From: an uncultured Flavobacteriales bacterium
Lineage (GTDB): Bacteria; Bacteroidota; Bacteroidia; Flavobacteriales_G; Salibacteraceae
Assembly (NCBI GenBank): GCA_937899835.1
Contig: CALCCE010000284.1
Coordinates: 1 to 50,129 of the forward strand
Direction of reading: 5' to 3'
Length of the DNA stretch: 50,129 bases
A program made the translations under genes and the position numbers. The notes under the pieces were generated by a model that saw nothing but the letters and a program-made list of their open reading frames with translations, had not been told where the DNA came from and made no database searches. Within the stretch, counting starts at the first letter, position 1. The number at the start of each line of letters is the position of its first letter. Of the stretch, positions 21-46,048 are shown piece after piece.

Positions 21-1256
21 TTAAGCCTCCAGGCGAGACCTTTTGCGCACCAACACTTCACGGTCTGCCGAAGATCGGGCCAAGGAAATGCCTTTGTCTA
101 AAGACAATTTGGCTTTGTTGTATTGTCCGTTGGCTGCGTACAACTCTCCCATCAAGGCATGGTAAAAATGCGAATGCTCCAAATCCAACTTCACGCCTTC
201 AGCAATGGCTTTTTGTGGACCTTGTGCTTTGGCCAAGGCATAAGTGCGGTTCAAGGCGGCAATCGGCGAATACTCAACTTGTAACAGGCGGTTGTAATAA
301 GATAGAATTTGCGTCCATTTCTGCGCTACCGTATCGGGTTGGGTATGCCAGTAGGCAATGGCGGCTTCAAGGTGGTATTTGGAAAGTTGGTCACCTTCTG
401 CCGCACGATTGAGGTACACCTCTCCCCTTTTCACCAGGTTCCAATCCCATAAATTACGGTCTTGCTCTTCGTAGAGTAAAATAGCTCCTTCAGGATTTAA
501 ACGGGCATCGAACCTCGATGCGTGAAAACACATGAGGGCCAACAGGGCCCGCACCATGGGCGTATCGCAGGCCGGATGTTGCAATAACAGCAAATTCAAG
601 CGCATGGCTTCCAGGCAAAGGTCTCTACGCAGGGTAGTATTGGTGACACTGGAGTGGTATCCTTCGTTGAATAACAGGTAGAGTGTAGCTGCCACTTGTT
701 CCAGGCGCGCGGGCAATTGATCGTCTGGCGGCATTTCCATGGCCATTTGGAGTGCTTTCAACTTCTGGCGCGCTCGGTAAAGCCGTTTGTTGGTCGACTC
801 TTTCGACTCTAAAAATGCCTCGGCAATTTCGTCAATACCCAAACCACAAAGAATGCGCAATGCCAAACCAATTTGTGCCGGTGCCGGGATTTCCGGATGG
901 CACACGGCAAAAATCATTTGCAATTGCTTGTCGCGTATCGACTCATCCGACCATTCTTCGGGTAAGACGGTAGATGGCTGATCGTGTAGTACCTCAGGAG
1001 TCACCTTTTGGTGAAACACTTGTTGCCTTTTGAGGTGCGTCAGGGCCTTGTTTTTCGCTACAGTATACAACCACGCGGTAGGATTGGCAGGCAGGCCTTT
1101 CTCCCTCCAGGTTTCACTGGCCTGTAAAAAGGTTTCGCTCACCACATCTTCGGCCAAGGCCATTTCGTGCAGGCCCAACTGCTTGGTCAATACCGCTACC
1201 ATCTTGGAAAACTCGGTACGAAACAGCTGGGGCAAAATCTCCTGAGGAAGTGACAT
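21..1256 (-). CDS. ECF42-type RNA polymerase sigma factor with C-terminal TPR-like extension (locus 1)
   Basis: A 411-residue sigma factor, about twice the length of an ordinary ECF sigma. Residues ~10-85 carry region 2 (AEDVVSETFLQA, then the AWLYTVAKNKAL segment). Residues ~120-170 carry region 4 (ILCGLGIDEIAEAFL followed by NKRLYRARQKLK). The rest is the DUF6596 plus helical repeat extension with the NEGYHSS motif, which is typical of ECF42 factors. Those factors have no anti-sigma partner and are encoded with DGPF/YCII proteins; the C-terminal extension is reported to control activity. Here it is the last gene of a minus-strand cluster SRPBCC, YCII, YCII, sigma. A terminator-like hairpin at 1337-1369 separates it from the YCII genes, so it may have its own promoter or depend on readthrough. 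A second factor of the same architecture lies at 43109-44335. Start is ATG at 1256. Confidence 0.93.
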   Translation of the reverse strand: MSLPQEILPQLFRTEFSKMVAVLTKQLGLHEMALAEDVVSETFLQASETWREKGLPANPTAWLYTVAKNKALTHLKRQQVFHQKVTPEVLHDQPSTVLPEEWSDESIRDKQLQMIFAVCHPEIPAPAQIGLALRILCGLGIDEIAEAFLESKESTNKRLYRARQKLKALQMAMEMPPDDQLPARLEQVAATLYLLFNEGYHSSVTNTTLRRDLCLEAMRLNLLLLQHPACDTPMVRALLALMCFHASRFDARLNPEGAILLYEEQDRNLWDWNLVKRGEVYLNRAAEGDQLSKYHLEAAIAYWHTQPDTVAQKWTQILSYYNRLLQVEYSPIAALNRTYALAKAQGPQKAIAEGVKLDLEHSHFYHALMGELYAANGQYNKAKLSLDKGISLARSSADREVLVRKRSRLEA

Positions 1257-1406: not shown

Positions 1407-1748
1407 CTAAAACTTCACGGGAATCATCGGGCGAACTTCTACACGGCCACCCACTTCTAAAACGGGACAACCGTGCGCAATGGCTACCGCATCGTCGATG
1501 GTGGCAGTTTTAACCACAATGTTGCCGCCTACCATTTCTTTCACTTCAGCGTAGGGCCCATCGGTAACCACACCACCGGGTTGGATCAATTTTCCGGTGT
1601 GTTCCAAACGTGCAGTACTCACAAAAGAGCCCTCACGGACCAGGCCGCCAATCCAACTTTGCCATTTTTTCACGCTGGCAGCGATTTCTTCTGGGGTGGG
1701 TTGGTAATCGGAGCTCTCGTAGTGGAAAAGCATCATAAACTCGTTCAT
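1407..1748 (-). CDS. YCII/DGPF-domain protein
   Basis: A 113-residue protein of the YCII-related (DGPF) family: a small dimeric alpha/beta fold often encoded beside ECF42 sigma factors, with no settled biochemical function. It begins MNEFMMLFHY and carries TDGPYAEVKEMVGG (the DGPF signature with Y for F) near residue 62, then the usual IVVKTATIDDAVAIAHGCP helix and a VEVRPM end strand. The reading frame is open further upstream, but ATG at 1748 is chosen because the domain starts there and the upstream stretch overlaps the neighbouring gene. It is the third gene of the locus-1 operon, 41 nt after the preceding YCII-like gene. Confidence 0.9.
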   Translation of the reverse strand: MNEFMMLFHYESSDYQPTPEEIAASVKKWQSWIGGLVREGSFVSTARLEHTGKLIQPGGVVTDGPYAEVKEMVGGNIVVKTATIDDAVAIAHGCPVLEVGGRVEVRPMIPVKF

Positions 1749-1789: not shown

Positions 1790-2146
1790 TCAAAGTTTGG
1801 GCAGTAGGAGCCGTCGAATTTCTACGATTCCTCCGCTTTGGTAGATGGGACAATCGGCAGCTAATTGCCGAGCCGAATTGGCATTTGCAGCACGTACTAC
1901 CATAGTGCCAGATATACTGGATTGAGGTTGTTGCAAGGGCCACACGTTGTGCAACCCTTGTTCGTTGCACCAAATACTGTTGTCGGCAAGTTGCCGAAAG
2001 GCTACAAACCTTCCCTGAGCTGCAATTCCACCAATCCAATTCTGCCATTGGTCTTCTTCATAACAGAAGGTTTCCACCGTTGGCAAGGCTGGGTTTTGAA
2101 ACAAAAGCATGTAAGCTTCTTGTTGGTAATGCTGGTTTCGGCTCAT
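1790..2146 (-). CDS. Degenerate YCII-like protein
   Basis: A 118-residue protein that aligns by eye with the YCII neighbour: YMLLFQNP at the N-terminus matches FMMLFHYE, WQNWIGGIAAQGRFV matches WQSWIGGLVREGSFV, and the end is VEIRRLL. The DGPF loop itself is missing (it reads NVWPLQQPQSSISGTMVV), so this looks like a diverged paralogue that kept the fold but lost the family signature. Its ATG overlaps the stop of the upstream SRPBCC gene as ATGA (2143-2146), which implies translational coupling. What it binds or does is unknown; a structural or heterodimer partner role for the intact YCII protein is an inference only. Confidence 0.8.
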   Translation of the reverse strand: MSRNQHYQQEAYMLLFQNPALPTVETFCYEEDQWQNWIGGIAAQGRFVAFRQLADNSIWCNEQGLHNVWPLQQPQSSISGTMVVRAANANSARQLAADCPIYQSGGIVEIRRLLLPKL

Positions 2147-2715
2147 GGTTGAAAGGTTTCTACCATGGCAGTGGATTCAAGGTTTTCGGTGTAAGCCTTA
2201 AACCGTTTCATTCCCAATTGATTCACTTCACTCATTTTGCCTTTCAGGCCAATGAGCATCGCAACAATGTTGGTTGGAAATTTCAGTCCTACCTCAAATT
2301 GCTGTACCACTTCAGTACCGTCATCCAAAGGTGTAAGGGAATAGTCGAACGAAGGGTAAGAGGTATATGGCGCGGTGATCTCACATTCGAAATACACCCG
2401 CTGGTTGGGTTCTAAGGCAGTGAGCACCTGCTTTCCTATACTTTCTTCGGCCACGCCTTCCCAATGAAAGGTGGCTCCCACAACTCCATCGGTACCCCGA
2501 ACCTCATTTTTTTGTGCCGGGTCTGCCACCAAAAAGGGCGACCATTGGCTAAAGTGGCCCAGGTACCGCAATTCATCGTATACCTCTTCCGGGCTGGCTT
2601 TTACTACCGAACGGGTTTGGATAGAAATTTGATTGGGAGCAATCAGTGCTAATACAGTTACTACTACGCCCAAGGCTCCAACGATAACTGCTACAGTGGT
2701 CATCATTTTTTTCAT
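2143..2715 (-). CDS. SRPBCC (START-like) family protein with N-terminal membrane segment
   Basis: About 190 residues from ATG at 2715. One hydrophobic segment (AVIVGALGVVVTVLALIA) follows the start, then a SRPBCC/polyketide-cyclase-type fold: VKASPEEVYDELRYLGHFSQWSPF is the classic opening strand and helix, and the domain ends with a long helix GLKGKMSEVNQLGMKRFKAYTENL. Such proteins bind hydrophobic ligands in a deep cavity; here it would be anchored to the inner membrane. The frame is open from 2757, but the putative -10 element (2756-2759) overlaps that upstream ATG, so a start at 2742 or, better, 2715 is preferred. It is the first gene of the ECF42 locus-1 operon. A second SRPBCC gene (42627) sits beside the other ECF42 locus. 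Confidence 0.85.
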   Translation of the reverse strand: MKKMMTTVAVIVGALGVVVTVLALIAPNQISIQTRSVVKASPEEVYDELRYLGHFSQWSPFLVADPAQKNEVRGTDGVVGATFHWEGVAEESIGKQVLTALEPNQRVYFECEITAPYTSYPSFDYSLTPLDDGTEVVQQFEVGLKFPTNIVAMLIGLKGKMSEVNQLGMKRFKAYTENLESTAMVETFQP

Positions 2716-2755
2716 GGTTTTGATTGTTGATTTGCGATTCATTTCCCTTATCACC

Positions 2756-2778
2756 ATCGAGTGGACATAAATTGGACA
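2756..2778 (-). promoter_or_regulatory. Putative ECF42-dependent promoter, locus 1
   Basis: On the minus strand TGTCC (2778-2774) is followed by exactly 14 nt and CGAT (2759-2756). The same TGTCC-N14-CG(A/T)T arrangement occurs at 41989-42011 and 46026-46048, each in front of a gene linked to an ECF42 sigma factor. Published ECF42 targets, as I recall them, have a TGTC-type -35 and a CG(A/T)-type -10, which fits. The site lies about 40 nt upstream of the preferred SRPBCC start. Confidence 0.6.
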
Positions 2779-6246: not shown

Positions 6247-8055
6247 ATGCAGAATCGAATGTTGCTTTCTTTCGCTCTAACCTTTTGTCTGCTTTGTATC
6301 GCCTTAGGAACCCAGGGACAGCAAACCATCACCTTCCACCTCGACCTCAAGAAGGCACTACAAAACGAGCATTCTTTTCAATCGGTGGGCCTTCGAGGAA
6401 GCCTGCCCCCACTTTCCTGGGAAAAGACTACCGATTTGACGGATGAAGACGGAGATGGCATCTACACCGGAACGTTCACATTTCCTGATCTATCCAAGGG
6501 GCGTAGGGTGGAATACAAATACGTATTGGACGGTGAAATGGAGTTCGATCCGGGCGATCCGCGGTGGTGGTTGAGCGGTGCTTCACTGGAAGGAGGGCCG
6601 AAAGACGAATGGAACCTCTACCGAGCCAAAACCGCCGAAGAGGTAGCCCAGTTAAAATTCAGTAGAGCGGAAGTGATGGCCGACCTTGCGATTCTTGAAG
6701 AGGCCCTGCGCACCTTGCACCCAGGTTTGTACCGCTACAATGATTCGTTGGAAATGGAGGAACGTTTTGCCCAGTTGCGCCAAGAGATATCGGAGTACAC
6801 CACCCCAGGAGAACTGTATGCTACCCTTTCTCGTTTCACAGCCACCATTCGGTGTGGCCATACCTATCCCAACTATTTCAACCAAGGGGCGATGGTGCAA
6901 CAAGTGGTATTGCGCCAGCCCGATAAACTCCCTTTTACGTTTCAGTGGTTTGGCGATCGCATGCTAACCATGGACAATGCCAGTGCCAACGAACAACTCG
7001 ATTTTGGTGCCGAAATACGCTCTATCAATGGTGTGCCTGTGGCTGAAATTCAACAAGCCATCTTGCCGATGATGAAAGCCGACGGCGGCAACGACGGCAA
7101 CCGCTTGCACCAAATGAACCTTACCGGCAAGGGCCGCTACGAAGCTTTTGACAGCTATTTCCCTCTCCTTTTTCCTCCCGTTGCGGGAAAGTTTGAGATC
7201 AATGCCAAACGACTGTCCGATGGTCAATCTTTCACCACTACGGTAGCAGCAATGAAGCGCACCGATCGCGCAGCTAAAATTGAAGAACAAAAAAGCGCCC
7301 CTGCTTCTAAAGCCCCCTGGCGGTTGGAATTTCTCGCACCCGATATTGCCTATTTAAGAATGGAAACCTTTTCTACCTGGGAATTTGATTTCGATTGGAA
7401 ACAATGGATCGCAACCGCATTCGATGAGATTCGGGAAAAAAACGTTGCGCACCTCATTGTTGACATTCGAAACAACGAAGGTGGCACTACCGAAGTGGTA
7501 AAAGTGCTTACGGAACAAATTGCCACCACCGAGTTGTCGTCAGAATTGGGTATGGACCGTACCCGAGCGACCGCTAAGCCTGCCAACTTGGCCCCTTATC
7601 TGGGTACCTGGGAAGACCTGTTCGAAACACAAAAGGGGAATTTTGAATACGTAGGCAACGGGTTTTACAAGTTCAAAACAGCGCGAATGTATGGCGGAAT
7701 GGTAAAACCGGTGAAAACACCCTACTCGGGAAAGGTGTATTTACTGATGGGGCCTTCCAACAGTTCAGCTACGTTTTATTTGTGCCGCACCTGGAAAAGA
7801 AACGGATTGGCAACTTTGGTGGGCAGTGAAACCGGCGGCAACCAACAAGGAACCAATGGAGGTTATCTGTACTTGCTTTATTTGCCCAATACCCATGTTG
7901 AGATCGATGTTCCGCTGATTGGTACTTTTCAGGCAGCAGGAGAGCCCGACCGCGGTCTGTTGCCGGACGTGGAAATTCAACTGTCAGTAGAGGATTACTT
8001 AGTTGGGCGGGATACTGCTTTGGAGAAAGTGCTGTCGCTGATTAAATCAGAGTGA
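6247..8055 (+). CDS. Secreted S41-family peptidase with N-terminal starch-binding-like/E-set domain
   Basis: A 602-residue protein with a signal peptide (about residues 1-24, ...GTQGQ). Residues ~27-120 form a beta-sandwich resembling CBM20/CBM48 or isoamylase-N modules (VGLRGSLPPLSWEKTTDLTDEDGDGIYTG, then YKYVLDGEMEFDPGDPRWW). The C-terminal part is an S41 (C-terminal processing/tricorn-like) peptidase core: IAYLRMETF, LIVDIRNNEGG, then MGPSNSSATFYL with the nucleophile at Ser506 or Ser507, and VGSETGGNQQG. A central PDZ-like stretch (ICGHTYPNYFN... EIRSINGVPVAEIQQAI) positions substrates. It probably acts in the periplasm or outside the cell on peptides; the fused domain could bind carbohydrate or simply be structural. 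The stop is 11 nt before the operator of the next gene. Confidence 0.88.
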   Translation: MQNRMLLSFALTFCLLCIALGTQGQQTITFHLDLKKALQNEHSFQSVGLRGSLPPLSWEKTTDLTDEDGDGIYTGTFTFPDLSKGRRVEYKYVLDGEMEFDPGDPRWWLSGASLEGGPKDEWNLYRAKTAEEVAQLKFSRAEVMADLAILEEALRTLHPGLYRYNDSLEMEERFAQLRQEISEYTTPGELYATLSRFTATIRCGHTYPNYFNQGAMVQQVVLRQPDKLPFTFQWFGDRMLTMDNASANEQLDFGAEIRSINGVPVAEIQQAILPMMKADGGNDGNRLHQMNLTGKGRYEAFDSYFPLLFPPVAGKFEINAKRLSDGQSFTTTVAAMKRTDRAAKIEEQKSAPASKAPWRLEFLAPDIAYLRMETFSTWEFDFDWKQWIATAFDEIREKNVAHLIVDIRNNEGGTTEVVKVLTEQIATTELSSELGMDRTRATAKPANLAPYLGTWEDLFETQKGNFEYVGNGFYKFKTARMYGGMVKPVKTPYSGKVYLLMGPSNSSATFYLCRTWKRNGLATLVGSETGGNQQGTNGGYLYLLYLPNTHVEIDVPLIGTFQAAGEPDRGLLPDVEIQLSVEDYLVGRDTALEKVLSLIKSE

Positions 8056-41988: not shown

Positions 41989-42011
41989 TGTCCTAATTCC
42001 CGTTGCTCGTT
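41989..42011 (+). promoter_or_regulatory. Putative ECF42-dependent promoter, barrel/SRPBCC operon
   Basis: TGTCC (41989-41993), 14 nt, then CGTT (42008-42011), the last part continuing as CGTTTGA. The -10 side is identical to that at 46026-46048 (CGTTTGA) and the spacing is the same. The start codon at 42036 is 24 nt downstream. Confidence 0.6.
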
Positions 42012-42035
42012 TGATACTATGCCAAAACGTAGATC

Positions 42036-42614
42036 ATGTCAAAAACGAGTATTGCCATTCTATTCCTGTTTTCGCTGATTATGGCACAGGGAGTGGCCCA
42101 AACCACCCGAACCTGGATAGGAATTGAAACCGACCCCATCACCACTGCTTTTGGCGCTCGCACCCTTTCGGCAGTGGTAGAGCCTCCCAAGGTGGCGCAT
42201 TGGTCTTTGTTCCTCAATGTGGTGCGTGCCGATTTCCCCGGTTGGATGGATGACTTTTTGAACCCTCAAAACCAGGACAAGGGCTTTGAAAGCAGGGTAA
42301 ACATCGGGGGTGGCTTCGCGGTAGATTACTTTCTCAACGAAGATCGCAAAGGCACCTACTTTGGTTTGGTCCAACTGTTTTTCGAAAATAAAGTCAGTAG
42401 AAACCAAGCCTCCCAAACCCTACTAACCCACAACCTTATTCCCAGAGTGGGGTACCGGTGGTATCCTTTTTCCAAGGCCAACCTGTACCTCAATCCATTT
42501 GCAGGCTTGCGCTACGAATATGCCCCGAGGGGTGACTTTTCGGTGGACGGAACTGCTTTTGAGGCCGCCGGCTTTCAGCCGTTTGGCACCCTGCACCTTG
42601 GCTATCACTTTTAA
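42036..42614 (+). CDS. Exported outer-membrane beta-barrel-like protein
   Basis: A 192-residue protein with a signal peptide (MSKTSIAILFLFSLIMAQGVAQ). The mature part alternates amphipathic strands (WIGIETDPITTAFGARTLSAVVE, SRVNIGGGFAVDYFLNE, TYFGLVQLFFENKV, LIPRVGYRWYPFSKANLYLNPFAGLRYEY) and ends with an aromatic strand closing in Phe (FGTLHLGYHF), as outer-membrane barrels do. Family unknown. The SRPBCC gene starts 12 nt after its stop, so they form an operon behind a putative ECF42 promoter. Confidence 0.78.
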   Translation: MSKTSIAILFLFSLIMAQGVAQTTRTWIGIETDPITTAFGARTLSAVVEPPKVAHWSLFLNVVRADFPGWMDDFLNPQNQDKGFESRVNIGGGFAVDYFLNEDRKGTYFGLVQLFFENKVSRNQASQTLLTHNLIPRVGYRWYPFSKANLYLNPFAGLRYEYAPRGDFSVDGTAFEAAGFQPFGTLHLGYHF

Positions 42615-42626
42615 CAATTCCATACC

Positions 42627-43115
42627 ATGCACCAAACACACGTAAGTACCCATGGCGGTATCACCGTCATCAGCTCCGAAATTGAAATTAAAGCAAGAAA
42701 GAACAAAGTATGGGAGGTGCTGCGCGACATTGGCGGAATTGCCCAATTTCACCCTTTGGTGAAAGCATCCAAAACCCTATCACACACCGCTTCTGGCTTA
42801 GGCGCCAGGCGCTACTGTGCCTTATTGCCCATGGGCTCCATGGAAGAAGAGGTAATTGCGTGGCACGAGGGCCAATCTTTTGTGATGGAGGTAGTTGGCG
42901 GCCAACTGCTTCCGCCTCATAAGTTCATGAAAGGGCACATCGAATTAAGCGACAACTACGATTCCACCAAGGTGCGGTTCTCCTTTTCCTACCAATTAAA
43001 ATATGGTGTATTGGGCCGTTGGATGAATGCCTTGTTGATCCAACCTCAATTCAAAAAAGCACCACCACAATACGTTCAAGGGTTGAAAGCCTATGTGGAG
43101 AACACCGCTCATTGA
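42627..43115 (+). CDS. SRPBCC (START-like) family protein
   Basis: A 162-residue SRPBCC protein: ISSEIEIKARKNKVWEVLRDIGGIAQFHPLVKASKTLSH is the first strand-helix-strand; GLGARRYCALLPMGSMEEEVIAWHEGQSFVMEV the central sheet; and the C-terminal helix is GVLGRWMNALLIQPQFKKAPPQYVQGLKAYVEN. No membrane anchor, unlike its counterpart at 2143-2715. It resembles proteins that hold hydrophobic molecules, and the ligand is unknown. The last 7 nt overlap the end of the convergent ECF42 sigma gene, which places both operons in one locus. Confidence 0.88.
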   Translation: MHQTHVSTHGGITVISSEIEIKARKNKVWEVLRDIGGIAQFHPLVKASKTLSHTASGLGARRYCALLPMGSMEEEVIAWHEGQSFVMEVVGGQLLPPHKFMKGHIELSDNYDSTKVRFSFSYQLKYGVLGRWMNALLIQPQFKKAPPQYVQGLKAYVENTAH

Positions 43116-44335
43116 TCCATCTTTTGAGCAATCAATTGCTTCTCCTGGTCGGATTTGGACAGTTGGAAGGCTTGTTGGAAATAGGGCTGCGCTTTGGAAG
43201 ACAAGCCCAATTCTACGTAGCATACGCCTATGGCGGTATGATAGTGTACATGCTGCTGAAGTGCCGGCTCCTTTTTCAACTGGAGCAAATCCATCAGAGC
43301 TTCCTCCCGGTTGATTCCATAAAACCTGGCGATGGCCTTGTTCAGCGAAAGCAAGGGGCTGGGCTGTAGTTTTTCCAAAATTTGATATTGTCGGTAGATA
43401 GCGGCCCAATTGGTAGTGGCAAAATCCTGAGCCAGGCAATGTTCGGCAGCAATGCCCGCTTGTAAATGATAAGGGCTTACCTCCTCGGATTGTATGGCTT
43501 CACTCAAGTATTCCATCCCCTCCCCGATCAGGCCCTGATCCCAAAGCGCCCGATTTTGATCGGAAAGCAAAACCAAAGTGCCCGCCTCGTCTACGCGGCT
43601 TTCGAAGCGGGCCACGTTGAGCAACATCAACGCGAGCAGCGCTTTGGCCCTGGTTACCTCCGAATATAGTCGCACGATTTCTTTGGTCAACCGAATGGCT
43701 TCAAAACACAAATCCATGCGAATGACTTTTTCGTGGTGAGCCGAATAATACCCTTCATTAAAAAGTAAATAAAGGGTGGTAAAAACGGCATCCAAACGTG
43801 CATTCAAGGCTTCTTCTGGCGGAAGATCGAAAGTCACCTCGCCTGCTCTAAACTTTTGTTTGGCCCGGTACAAACGCTTGTTTACGGTAGCTTCGTTGGT
43901 GAGCAAAGCGTGGGCAATCTCACCGATGCTGAGGCCACAAAGTATTTTTAGCGCTAAGGCAATTTGCGAAGCCACCGGCAAGGAGGGGTGACAGCAGGTA
44001 AAAACCATGCGCAGCGTGCTGTCTTCCTCCAGGGACTCGTTTTCGAAAAGCGTACCGATTTCAACGTTGGGGAGCACTTTGGTTTCGAAGGTTTGGTGGC
44101 GCCTCAAAAAATTGATGGTTTTCTTTTTGGCCACGTCCATCAGCCACCCTTCAGGATTATCAGGAATGGCATGAACGCTCCATTTTTCCATGGCTTCCAC
44201 CAAGGTTTCCTGTAAAATGTCTTCGGCAATTTCTACTTCTCTCAAGCCGAAATACCGCACCAGGATGGCCAGCATTTTGGCATAACTGTACCGAAAGAAG
44301 TGTTCGGCCAATTGCTCCTTCGAAGCTTCAGTCAT
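43109..44335 (-). CDS. ECF42-type RNA polymerase sigma factor with C-terminal TPR-like extension (locus 2)
   Basis: 408 residues from ATG 44335 (a TTG in frame two codons upstream is less likely). Region 2 includes AEDILQETLVEAMEKW and GWLMDVAKKKTINFLRRHQ; region 4 includes ILCGLSIGEIAHALLTNEATVNKRLYRAKQKFR; then DUF6596 with FNEGYYSAHHEKVIRMDLCFEAIRL and TPR-like helices to the end. Same architecture as the factor at 21-1256. It is the last gene of a five-gene minus-strand operon. Its ATG overlaps the stop of the YCII gene by 8 nt (ATGACTGA), so sigma synthesis is coupled to that of its DGPF partner. Confidence 0.93.
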   Translation of the reverse strand: MTEASKEQLAEHFFRYSYAKMLAILVRYFGLREVEIAEDILQETLVEAMEKWSVHAIPDNPEGWLMDVAKKKTINFLRRHQTFETKVLPNVEIGTLFENESLEEDSTLRMVFTCCHPSLPVASQIALALKILCGLSIGEIAHALLTNEATVNKRLYRAKQKFRAGEVTFDLPPEEALNARLDAVFTTLYLLFNEGYYSAHHEKVIRMDLCFEAIRLTKEIVRLYSEVTRAKALLALMLLNVARFESRVDEAGTLVLLSDQNRALWDQGLIGEGMEYLSEAIQSEEVSPYHLQAGIAAEHCLAQDFATTNWAAIYRQYQILEKLQPSPLLSLNKAIARFYGINREEALMDLLQLKKEPALQQHVHYHTAIGVCYVELGLSSKAQPYFQQAFQLSKSDQEKQLIAQKMDQ

Positions 44336-44657
44336 CGGCAACCATGGGTCTTACAAAAATCTCAAAATACTGCAACAGCGGAGATGCGTTGGCCATGGCG
44401 GTAGCGTGCGCCAAATCCCGGGCCTTTAAAATGATAAATCCGGCAATGATTTCCTTGGCTTCTAAAAATGGACCATCTGTCACAATGGAGTCTTTCGCTT
44501 GAATGTGGGCTCCTTCCCTTTCCAGGCGGTTGTCGTCCACATAATAAGCACTAATGGTGTCCACCCAAGCACGGTACTCCTCTATCCTTTTTTGCAGTTG
44601 CTCAGGCGAATAGTCCAAGGCTTTTTTCCCTTTCAACAAGAGTAAATAGTGATTCAT
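44328..44657 (-). CDS. YCII/DGPF-domain protein
   Basis: A 109-residue DGPF protein with an intact signature (IVTDGPFLEAKEIIAGFIILKARDLAHATAMANASPL) and a typical YFEIFVRPM end strand. The N-terminus MNHYLLLLKGKKALDYSPEQLQKRIEEYRAWVDTI matches the family. It overlaps the DUF2461 stop by ATGA (44654-44657) and the sigma start by 8 nt. This is the canonical ECF42 partner; the catalytic role of DGPF proteins is unsettled. Confidence 0.92.
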   Translation of the reverse strand: MNHYLLLLKGKKALDYSPEQLQKRIEEYRAWVDTISAYYVDDNRLEREGAHIQAKDSIVTDGPFLEAKEIIAGFIILKARDLAHATAMANASPLLQYFEIFVRPMVADD

Positions 44658-45313
44658 GTCAACGCCTTTTTAAGAAATTGATTCAGTGGATAAATCGCCT
44701 TGAAGTGCTCCATGAGCACCGTATTGAGTTGATCGGAGTTAAGGTAAGGAGCCAAATCGAATTGGCGCATGGCATAAAATTGCTTGTTGGCAATGAGCTT
44801 GGTTTTTTCCAAAACAGGCTGTAGGTCCTTATCGATCCGTTTGGCACGATTGCCCTTCAATTCACCGAAGTGGTGCACAAAGGGCGCGGCAGAAACAATG
44901 CTTACAAACCCCTGCGTATCGTCTGCAATGGCCTGCCGGATGCGTTTCAAATCCGCTCCGCTTAGGTTCATCAATCCACCTCCGGCGTGAACGCGGTGTG
45001 CCCCAATGCCCAAATAAAAGCCCGGCAATTTGGATTTTTTGCCTCCGGGAGCAAAACTGGCCTTCATCAGAAGGTTGTAGGGTGTTTTGTCTTTCGAAAA
45101 GCGGACATCCCGGTTGATTCGAAACAGGGCATCTTTGGGGTTGGGAGCGATGGCAGCTTCCAATGCTGTAAGTTCTGAAATTAAAGAAGCTACCAAATCC
45201 GTGAAAGGCAATTTTACTTCCTTTTCGTAGGTGGCTTTGTTTGCATGAAACCACGCTTTATGGTTGTTCTGTTCCAGGCCTTCAAAAAAGGCCACATAGG
45301 GTGCTGCAATCAT
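44654..45313 (-). CDS. DUF2461 family protein
   Basis: A 219-residue member of DUF2461 (TIGR02453): FFEGLEQNNHKAWFHANKATYEKEVKLPFTDLVASLISEL opens the domain. DALFRINRDVRFSKDKTPYNLLMKASFAPGGKKSKLPGFYLGIGAHRVHAGGGL is the core with the RDxRFSKDKTPY motif. Function unknown; found in bacteria and fungi. Both ends overlap neighbours by 4 nt (ATGA at 44654-44657 and 45310-45313), so it is translated as part of the DGPF operon. Confidence 0.92.
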   Translation of the reverse strand: MIAAPYVAFFEGLEQNNHKAWFHANKATYEKEVKLPFTDLVASLISELTALEAAIAPNPKDALFRINRDVRFSKDKTPYNLLMKASFAPGGKKSKLPGFYLGIGAHRVHAGGGLMNLSGADLKRIRQAIADDTQGFVSIVSAAPFVHHFGELKGNRAKRIDKDLQPVLEKTKLIANKQFYAMRQFDLAPYLNSDQLNTVLMEHFKAIYPLNQFLKKALT

Positions 45314-45648
45314 CCTTCGGTGGTTAATGTTTGAAGTGCTTTTTCAGCCAGCGGTTCCCACTGATCCTGGTGGGTGTAGGGCACCTCGAACCAGCCGTAC
45401 AATGGCGCCCTTTTGGTAAAAGGGTTAAACACCCGAATTTCGAAATCTTGCGTTTCCGGATCAAACTGCTTTCCGAGTTTGAACACCATTTTTTGCTTTC
45501 TTGAAAAGAAGGCAAACACTTTGCCTTCGTAGGTAATGGCCTCAGAGCTCATCATTTTTCCGGGCGCTACCAGCGGTACTTTTTCACAGAATTCCGTGCG
45601 GATTTCCAGGAAACGTTCCCGTTCAGCTTGCTTGATCACATCCTTCAT
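45310..45648 (-). CDS. TfoX/YjbR-like small protein
   Basis: A 112-residue protein resembling the YjbR/TfoX-N superfamily: MMSSEAITYEGKVFAFFSRKQKMVFKLGKQFDPE, then VPYTHQDQWEPLAEKALQTL, the usual closing helix. Enzymatic activity is not expected. It starts 1 nt after the stop of the upstream YCII gene and its stop overlaps the next start. Confidence 0.75.
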   Translation of the reverse strand: MKDVIKQAERERFLEIRTEFCEKVPLVAPGKMMSSEAITYEGKVFAFFSRKQKMVFKLGKQFDPETQDFEIRVFNPFTKRAPLYGWFEVPYTHQDQWEPLAEKALQTLTTEG

Positions 45649-45649
45649 A

Positions 45650-45979
45650 TCACATCGATTTTAAAGGATGAACGATCACCCGACCTCCGTTTTGGAGGAT
45701 GGGGTTGTGCTGGCACAACTTAGCCGCTTCGTCAATATCCTTTGCCTGAATGACCATTACTCCCCCTAATTTATTCTTTTGCGTCAAAAATGCCCCTTGG
45801 TCATCGATCGACTCTTGGGTGACTTGCCGACCGGTGGCATTCTCCACCAGCAAACCAGACTTAAAGTGCTGGCCCGCGTTCAGCACGTCCATAAATTTTC
45901 CATACGCTTCGTAATGGGCGCTCATTTCGCTGGGATACTCAGGCGCTCCGCCAAAAAAGAGGATGACAAATTCTTCCAT
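45650..45979 (-). CDS. YCII-like protein, DGPF motif altered
   Basis: 109 residues from ATG 45979 (MEEFVILFFGGAPEYPSEMSAHYEAYGKF). It aligns with YCII proteins through the N-terminal strand, VTQESIDDQGAFLTQKNKLGGVMVIQAKDIDEAAKLCQHNPIL and the VIVHPL end. The signature loop reads DDQGAF in place of TDGPF. The frame is open upstream, but the domain and the promoter spacing favour 45979. It heads the five-gene ECF42 locus-2 operon. Confidence 0.85.
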   Translation of the reverse strand: MEEFVILFFGGAPEYPSEMSAHYEAYGKFMDVLNAGQHFKSGLLVENATGRQVTQESIDDQGAFLTQKNKLGGVMVIQAKDIDEAAKLCQHNPILQNGGRVIVHPLKSM

Positions 45980-46025
45980 GGTTCTTTGTTGTTTGGTAAA
46001 ACAATACGTGTTTATAGCAATGTCA

Positions 46026-46048
46026 AACGGGCAACAAAAAATAGGACA
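46026..46048 (-). promoter_or_regulatory. Putative ECF42-dependent promoter, locus-2 DGPF operon
   Basis: On the minus strand TGTCC (46048-46044), 14 nt, then CGTT (46029-46026) continuing as CGTTTGA. It lies 47 nt upstream of the YCII start. Spacing and both boxes agree with the sites at 2756-2778 and 41989-42011. Confidence 0.6.

Follow-up and report, generated by a model that had tools for sequence, protein, structure and literature searches.

A candidate self-contained ECF42 sigma factor circuit with two promoters in an uncultured Flavobacteriales bacterium

Two loci encoding ECF42-type sigma factors

The window, which is the whole 50,129-nucleotide stretch of DNA analyzed here, carries two sigma factor loci, referred to as A and B (Table 1). 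SRPBCC and YCII proteins and a long sigma factor with DUF6596 are encoded at both loci, and at locus B an operon for an outer-membrane barrel and an SRPBCC protein converges on the second sigma gene (sigB), as described in an earlier note on this DNA. These are the only two sigma factor genes with DUF6596 (PF20239) in the genome. The domains PF04542, PF08281, and PF20239 are found in both sigma factors, with the PF08281 match of SigA being below the curated cutoff, and TPR_8 is found in SigB. In both proteins, about 200 residues (DUF6596/TPR) extend the C terminus, and YCII/DGPF genes lie upstream of both sigma genes. A Pfam search for anti-sigma families among the operon proteins of both loci gave no match; ECF42 operons lack a cognate anti-sigma gene. 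The promoter sites have TGTC and the 23-nt offset of ECF42, but their -10 element, TGAC or TGAT for locus B and GGTG for locus A, differs from CGWC. SigA and SigB are assigned to ECF42 as probable members on the basis of domains and gene neighbors.

The barrel protein belongs to no family found in a Pfam search. Its AlphaFold2 model is confident (mean pLDDT, 88.7), and Foldseek matches of low similarity were obtained with OprF-N, NspA, OmpA, and OmpW. The 3' ends of the SRPBCC gene and sigB overlap tail to tail by 7 bp, and the corresponding overlaps in the other four loci of the sigB clade measure 4 to 23 bp. This arrangement leaves no room for a terminator between the two genes, so overlapping convergent transcripts are likely at their 3' ends. 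The sigB operon starts 69 nt from TGTCC with a YCII gene; the Tamlana sigB operon opens at that place with a glyoxalase/VOC-like gene (L047:122-540), and glyoxalase-like proteins are among the targets of Sinorhizobium meliloti RpoE10 (PMC6180224).

Table 1. Genes and predicted promoters of the two ECF42-type loci in the window
Feature	Position	Strand	Remarks
Locus A
SigA, second ECF42-type sigma factor	21..1256	-	PF20239, E 4e-33; clade other than that of SigB in the tree
YCII/DGPF protein	1407..1748	-	PF03795
YCII-like protein	1790..2146	-	PF03795 just below cutoff
SRPBCC protein, first sigA-operon gene	2143..2715	-	PF10604; syntenic in L109 and L142
Candidate sigA operon promoter (site A)	2750..2778	-	TGTCCAATT at the A-type position; degenerate -10 GGTGAT
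Locus B
Predicted barrel/SRPBCC operon promoter	41989..42017	+	-35 TGTCC(TAAT), 41989-41993; extended CGTT, 42008-42011; -10 core TGATAC, 42012-42017
Small outer-membrane beta-barrel, 192 aa	42036..42614	+	N-terminal signal-like helix, then about 8 strands
SRPBCC protein (Polyketide_cyc2), 162 aa	42627..43115	+	PF10604, E 4e-13
SigB, ECF42-type sigma factor with DUF6596/TPR C-terminal extension	43109..44335	-	PF04542, PF08281, PF20239, TPR_8; first ATG at 44335
YCII/DGPF protein	44328..44657	-	PF03795
DUF2461/TIGR02453 protein	44654..45313	-	PF09365, E 4e-53; TIGR02453
TfoX-N-like protein	45310..45648	-	PF04993, E 8e-5, below curated cutoff
YCII/DGPF protein, first sigB-operon gene	45650..45979	-	YCII match at 45680-45928
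Predicted sigB operon promoter	46020..46048	-	-35 TGTCC(TATT), 46048-46044; extended CGTT, 46029-46026; -10 core TGACAT, 46025-46020

The promoter motif of Bacteroidota ECF42 loci

The earlier note had proposed TGTCC-N14-CGWT as a shared promoter element and had taken CGWT for its -10 side. The element is present in intergenic DNA upstream of both sigma operons (2756-2778 and 46026-46048, both minus strand) and of the barrel/SRPBCC operon (41989-42011, plus strand), as that note had described; with a fourth match within a gene (6298-6320, minus strand), the window contains 4 matches, compared with 0.62 expected. Throughout the 6.9-Mb genome, the pattern occurs 72 times and its reversal 59 times, which is no clear enrichment, and a regulon is therefore not predicted by the pattern as written. 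Upstream of ECF42 genes, the pattern does occur in 21 of 125 loci (shuffled mean, 0.45), but a better box lies 4 nt further on. In 20 of these 21 loci, the same TGTCC also has the better-conserved YGWY directly after CGWT (N18), and the sole exception is site A of the window. The operon walk over the 125 loci missed site B of the window, which has both CGWT and YGWY. Among 112 gene-proximal TGTCC sites, YGWY is found at offset 23 in 72 and CGWT at offset 19 in 18. This offset profile rules out CGWT as the -10 box and places the true box 4 bases further; what was read as CGWT corresponds to a weakly conserved CRTT, the 4 bases just upstream of the true -10 core.

A dyad scan, which counts word pairs and uses no prior motif, was run on 83 Bacteroidota ECF42 loci and the two window loci (85 in total), with each operon walked upstream. 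The top dyad, TGTCC-N17-TCGT, overlaps TGTCC-N18-CGTC and occurs in 20 loci, compared with a shuffled maximum of 7. The Bacteroidota ECF42 promoter based on the 125 loci reads TGTCC-N18-YGTYAT, with 23 nt from the start of TGTCC to the start of the -10 core. TGTCC-N18-YGWY is present upstream in 70 of the 125 loci (shuffled mean, 0.85), and the distance from TGTCC to the first gene is usually about 50 to 80 nt. The three mapped promoters of Sinorhizobium RpoE10, an ECF42 sigma factor, read TGTCGG...CGTC with an equal offset of 23 (PMC6180224).

A conserved pair of predicted promoters at locus B

The sigB operon site reads TGTCCTATT-N14-TGACAT, and the barrel operon site reads TGTCCTAAT-N14-TGATAC. 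TGTCCYAWT-N14-TGAYA occurs at exactly two sites in the 6.9-Mb genome, both at locus B, and its reversal occurs at none. Since the pattern was partly derived from these two sites, the genome count cannot by itself serve as independent evidence. An independent test is provided by conservation among the loci of the sigB clade, which consists of SigB and homologs from Tamlana (L047), a Flammeovirgaceae MAG (L048), Roseivirga (L049), and G309 (L170). The clade has an SH-aLRT support of 100, and 100/100 in a second tree, and its members come from distant families. The sigma operon site TGTCC...TGACAT is present in all five loci. The converging SRPBCC operon is also preceded in all five by TGTCCTA and, at the same offset, TGACAT, TGATA, or AGACAT, with the site of the window's barrel operon having its counterpart before the convergent operon of L047, L048, L049, and L170. 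With a scoring matrix built from the five sigB-operon promoters alone, the convergent-operon sites score 18.3 to 27.0 and are the sole other strong site in each locus; the remaining positions of the same loci score no higher than 14.3, and the background no higher than 12.8 over 171,936 positions. The weakest of the ten sites is the barrel site of the window (TGATAC). The pairing sample is small, with only five sigB-clade loci found. The converging operon of L048 and L170 has the SRPBCC gene without a barrel homolog, and a barrel is encoded in the other three loci. The two-site uniqueness and the 5/5 pairing bear out the proposal that the barrel/SRPBCC operon and the second sigma operon share a promoter, and the barrel and the lipid-binding-type (SRPBCC) protein very probably belong to the SigB circuit.

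Candidates for further members of the regulon in the genome were rejected. A loose pattern matches six sites, versus ten for its reversal, and the two sites inspected lie within a long open frame (C22) and within a probable gene (C122). The more distant barrel homologs have no linked ECF42 or SRPBCC gene within the 3 kb read. In Roseivirga, a third B-type site, TGTCCCAATTAACTCCTGTGGATTGACAT, is present at L212:1501-1529 (G420:C77:325581), between genes that read from their translations as a TraB-like protein and a membrane LytTR-type regulator, and may represent an additional target there.

Residue 73 and the -10 element

At residue 73 of SigB (counted from LPM), all five clade members have lysine, and 114 of the 120 other sigma factors have asparagine. 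K73 aligns with N88 of Mycobacterium tuberculosis SigH, which contacts a -10 T in the solved complex (PMC6411747), and it is at the corresponding base that the sigB clade has A instead of T. SigH belongs to another ECF group, and for SigB the link is a correlation only, with exceptions. R73 occurs together with A at that base in L118 (TGATAT), and sigma factors with Q73 have CAT in place of YGT. A strict one-to-one rule is weakened by the occurrence of A with N73 in L151, L167/L271/L272, and, doubtfully, L281, and by R73 with CGTC outside Bacteroidota. L118 was rejected as a member of the sigB clade, as the tree places it elsewhere, with a single clade not being rejected by the test (p 0.31). 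The association between residue 73 and the -10 base thus appears to be a correlation from a handful of clade-level events.

Variant promoters were also seen elsewhere among the loci. In L171, whose sigma factor has Q73, the -10 variant CATTAT is shared by a pair of linked target sites at -449 and +1244 from the sigma start; the relatives of L171, L182 and L287, have CATTGG. In L167, L271, and L272, a promoter TGTCC...TGACTT lies downstream of the sigma gene, and in L167 and L272 it is followed by an apparent YCII gene, which suggests that the target follows the sigma gene in this clade.

A broader proposal is that the sigB clade is an ECF42 subfamily in which the -10 element moved from YGTYAT to TGAYAT along with N73K in the sigma2 site that contacts the base, insulating it from the standard paralog in the same cell, and in which the convergent overlap (4 to 23 bp, 5/5) gives antisense transcription to sigB and a damped response. 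This combination is tentative and, taken as a whole, unlikely.

One regulon or two circuits

We consider it likely that locus B is a self-contained ECF42 circuit with two promoters and that locus A is a second circuit, probably largely separate. SigB, with its activity probably gated by the TPR extension, would direct RNA polymerase to the two TGTCCTAWT-N14-TGAYA promoters. The first would drive the YCII-TfoX-DUF2461-YCII-sigB operon, amounting to autoregulation, and the second would drive the barrel-SRPBCC operon, which converges on sigB and shares a 3' overlap with it. The circuit at locus A would follow the pattern usual for ECF42 in Bacteroidota (TGTCC-N18-YGTYAT).

The state of site A bears on the second half of this reading. 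It is possible, though somewhat unlikely, that locus B functions as proposed and that the locus A promoter has decayed or is read by another factor, with sigA autoregulation through site A lost. Two of the six bases of GGTGAT do not fit YGTYAT, and the SigA relatives L109 and L142, which share the SRPBCC-YCII-sigma order, have TGTCCAAT-N15-CGTCAT. However, site A retains TGTCCAATT and a distance of 63 nt to the ATG at 2715, and its motif score of 14.6 exceeds those of loci without the motif, which are mostly under 7. In S. meliloti, the rpoE10 operon carries the motif, yet it is seemingly not autoregulated. At the position that is A in the B clade, site A has kept T, in line with A-type recognition, although the box is degenerate. 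It contains two overlapping TGTCC words (TGTCCAATTTATGTCC), with the usual spacing holding only for the first.

A single ECF42 regulon spanning the two loci, in which CGWT would be the -10 box and the sigma factors could cross-talk, had been the model of the earlier note and is now improbable. TGTCC and CGWT at N14 are common to all three sites, and SRPBCC, YCII, and ECF42 sigma genes occur at both loci; however, the -10 core is not CGWT, SigA falls in a separate 46-row clade, and the -10 cores of the relatives differ (CGTCAT versus TGACAT). In addition, site A has no TGAYA and scores 11.9 with the B matrix, compared with 18 to 29 for the B sites. The separate clades, the different -10 cores, and the box of site A leave one joint regulon unsupported and make two circuits the better description. 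Specialization of the two sigma factors by a -10 difference, which the earlier note had also raised, survives in spirit, with the difference being YGTYAT versus TGAYAT and not CGAT versus CGTT. Against insulation of the two circuits, the -35 elements are alike at A and B, and the box of site A is poor for either sigma factor.

Although SigB binding to the shared site is a prediction, it is very improbable that the site belongs to another regulator instead of being an ECF42 promoter, since it agrees with mapped ECF42 promoters in both spacing and position and lies ahead of the ECF42 operons of most of the 125 loci. Two largely separate circuits, with both locus B promoters read by SigB, remain the preferred reading.

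Comparison with known ECF42 systems

ECF42 sigma factors, their YCII neighbors, their control by the TPR extension, and an unlinked second target operon have been published previously (PMC8999054, PMC6180224). The Bacteroidota motif, the TGACAT subclade, and the conservation of a tail-to-tail overlap between target gene and sigma gene are new here, with the reservation that the motif may stand in the main ECF42 papers or the 2021 reclassification. In the literature searched, neither the TGACAT promoter pair of the sigB clade nor its conserved convergent overlap was found.

ECF42 sigma factors are widespread, and a clean regulon of two promoters, in which SRPBCC and often also an outer-membrane barrel recur as partner, would provide a concrete handle on their role in Bacteroidota. 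If the proposed reading is true, two paralogs with different -10 boxes in one genome constitute a natural test of ECF specificity change.

The motif of Streptomyces ECF42 is TGTCGA/CG(A/T)C, whereas here the -35 element is TGTCC and the -10 element is YGTYAT or, for the sigB clade, TGAYAT. Sven_0747 of Streptomyces venezuelae and other ECF42 sigma factors with DGPF/YCII neighbors have the same architecture, in which sigma2-sigma4 is followed by about 200 aa of TPR extension; their genes also adjoin YCII genes, with no anti-sigma gene seen, as here (PMC8999054). RpoE10 of S. meliloti recognizes TGTCG...CGTC with the same 23-nt offset as here, and no outer-membrane barrel is reported among its targets. 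Its second target operon lies elsewhere and is not convergent on the sigma gene, unlike the barrel/SRPBCC operon of locus B (PMC6180224).
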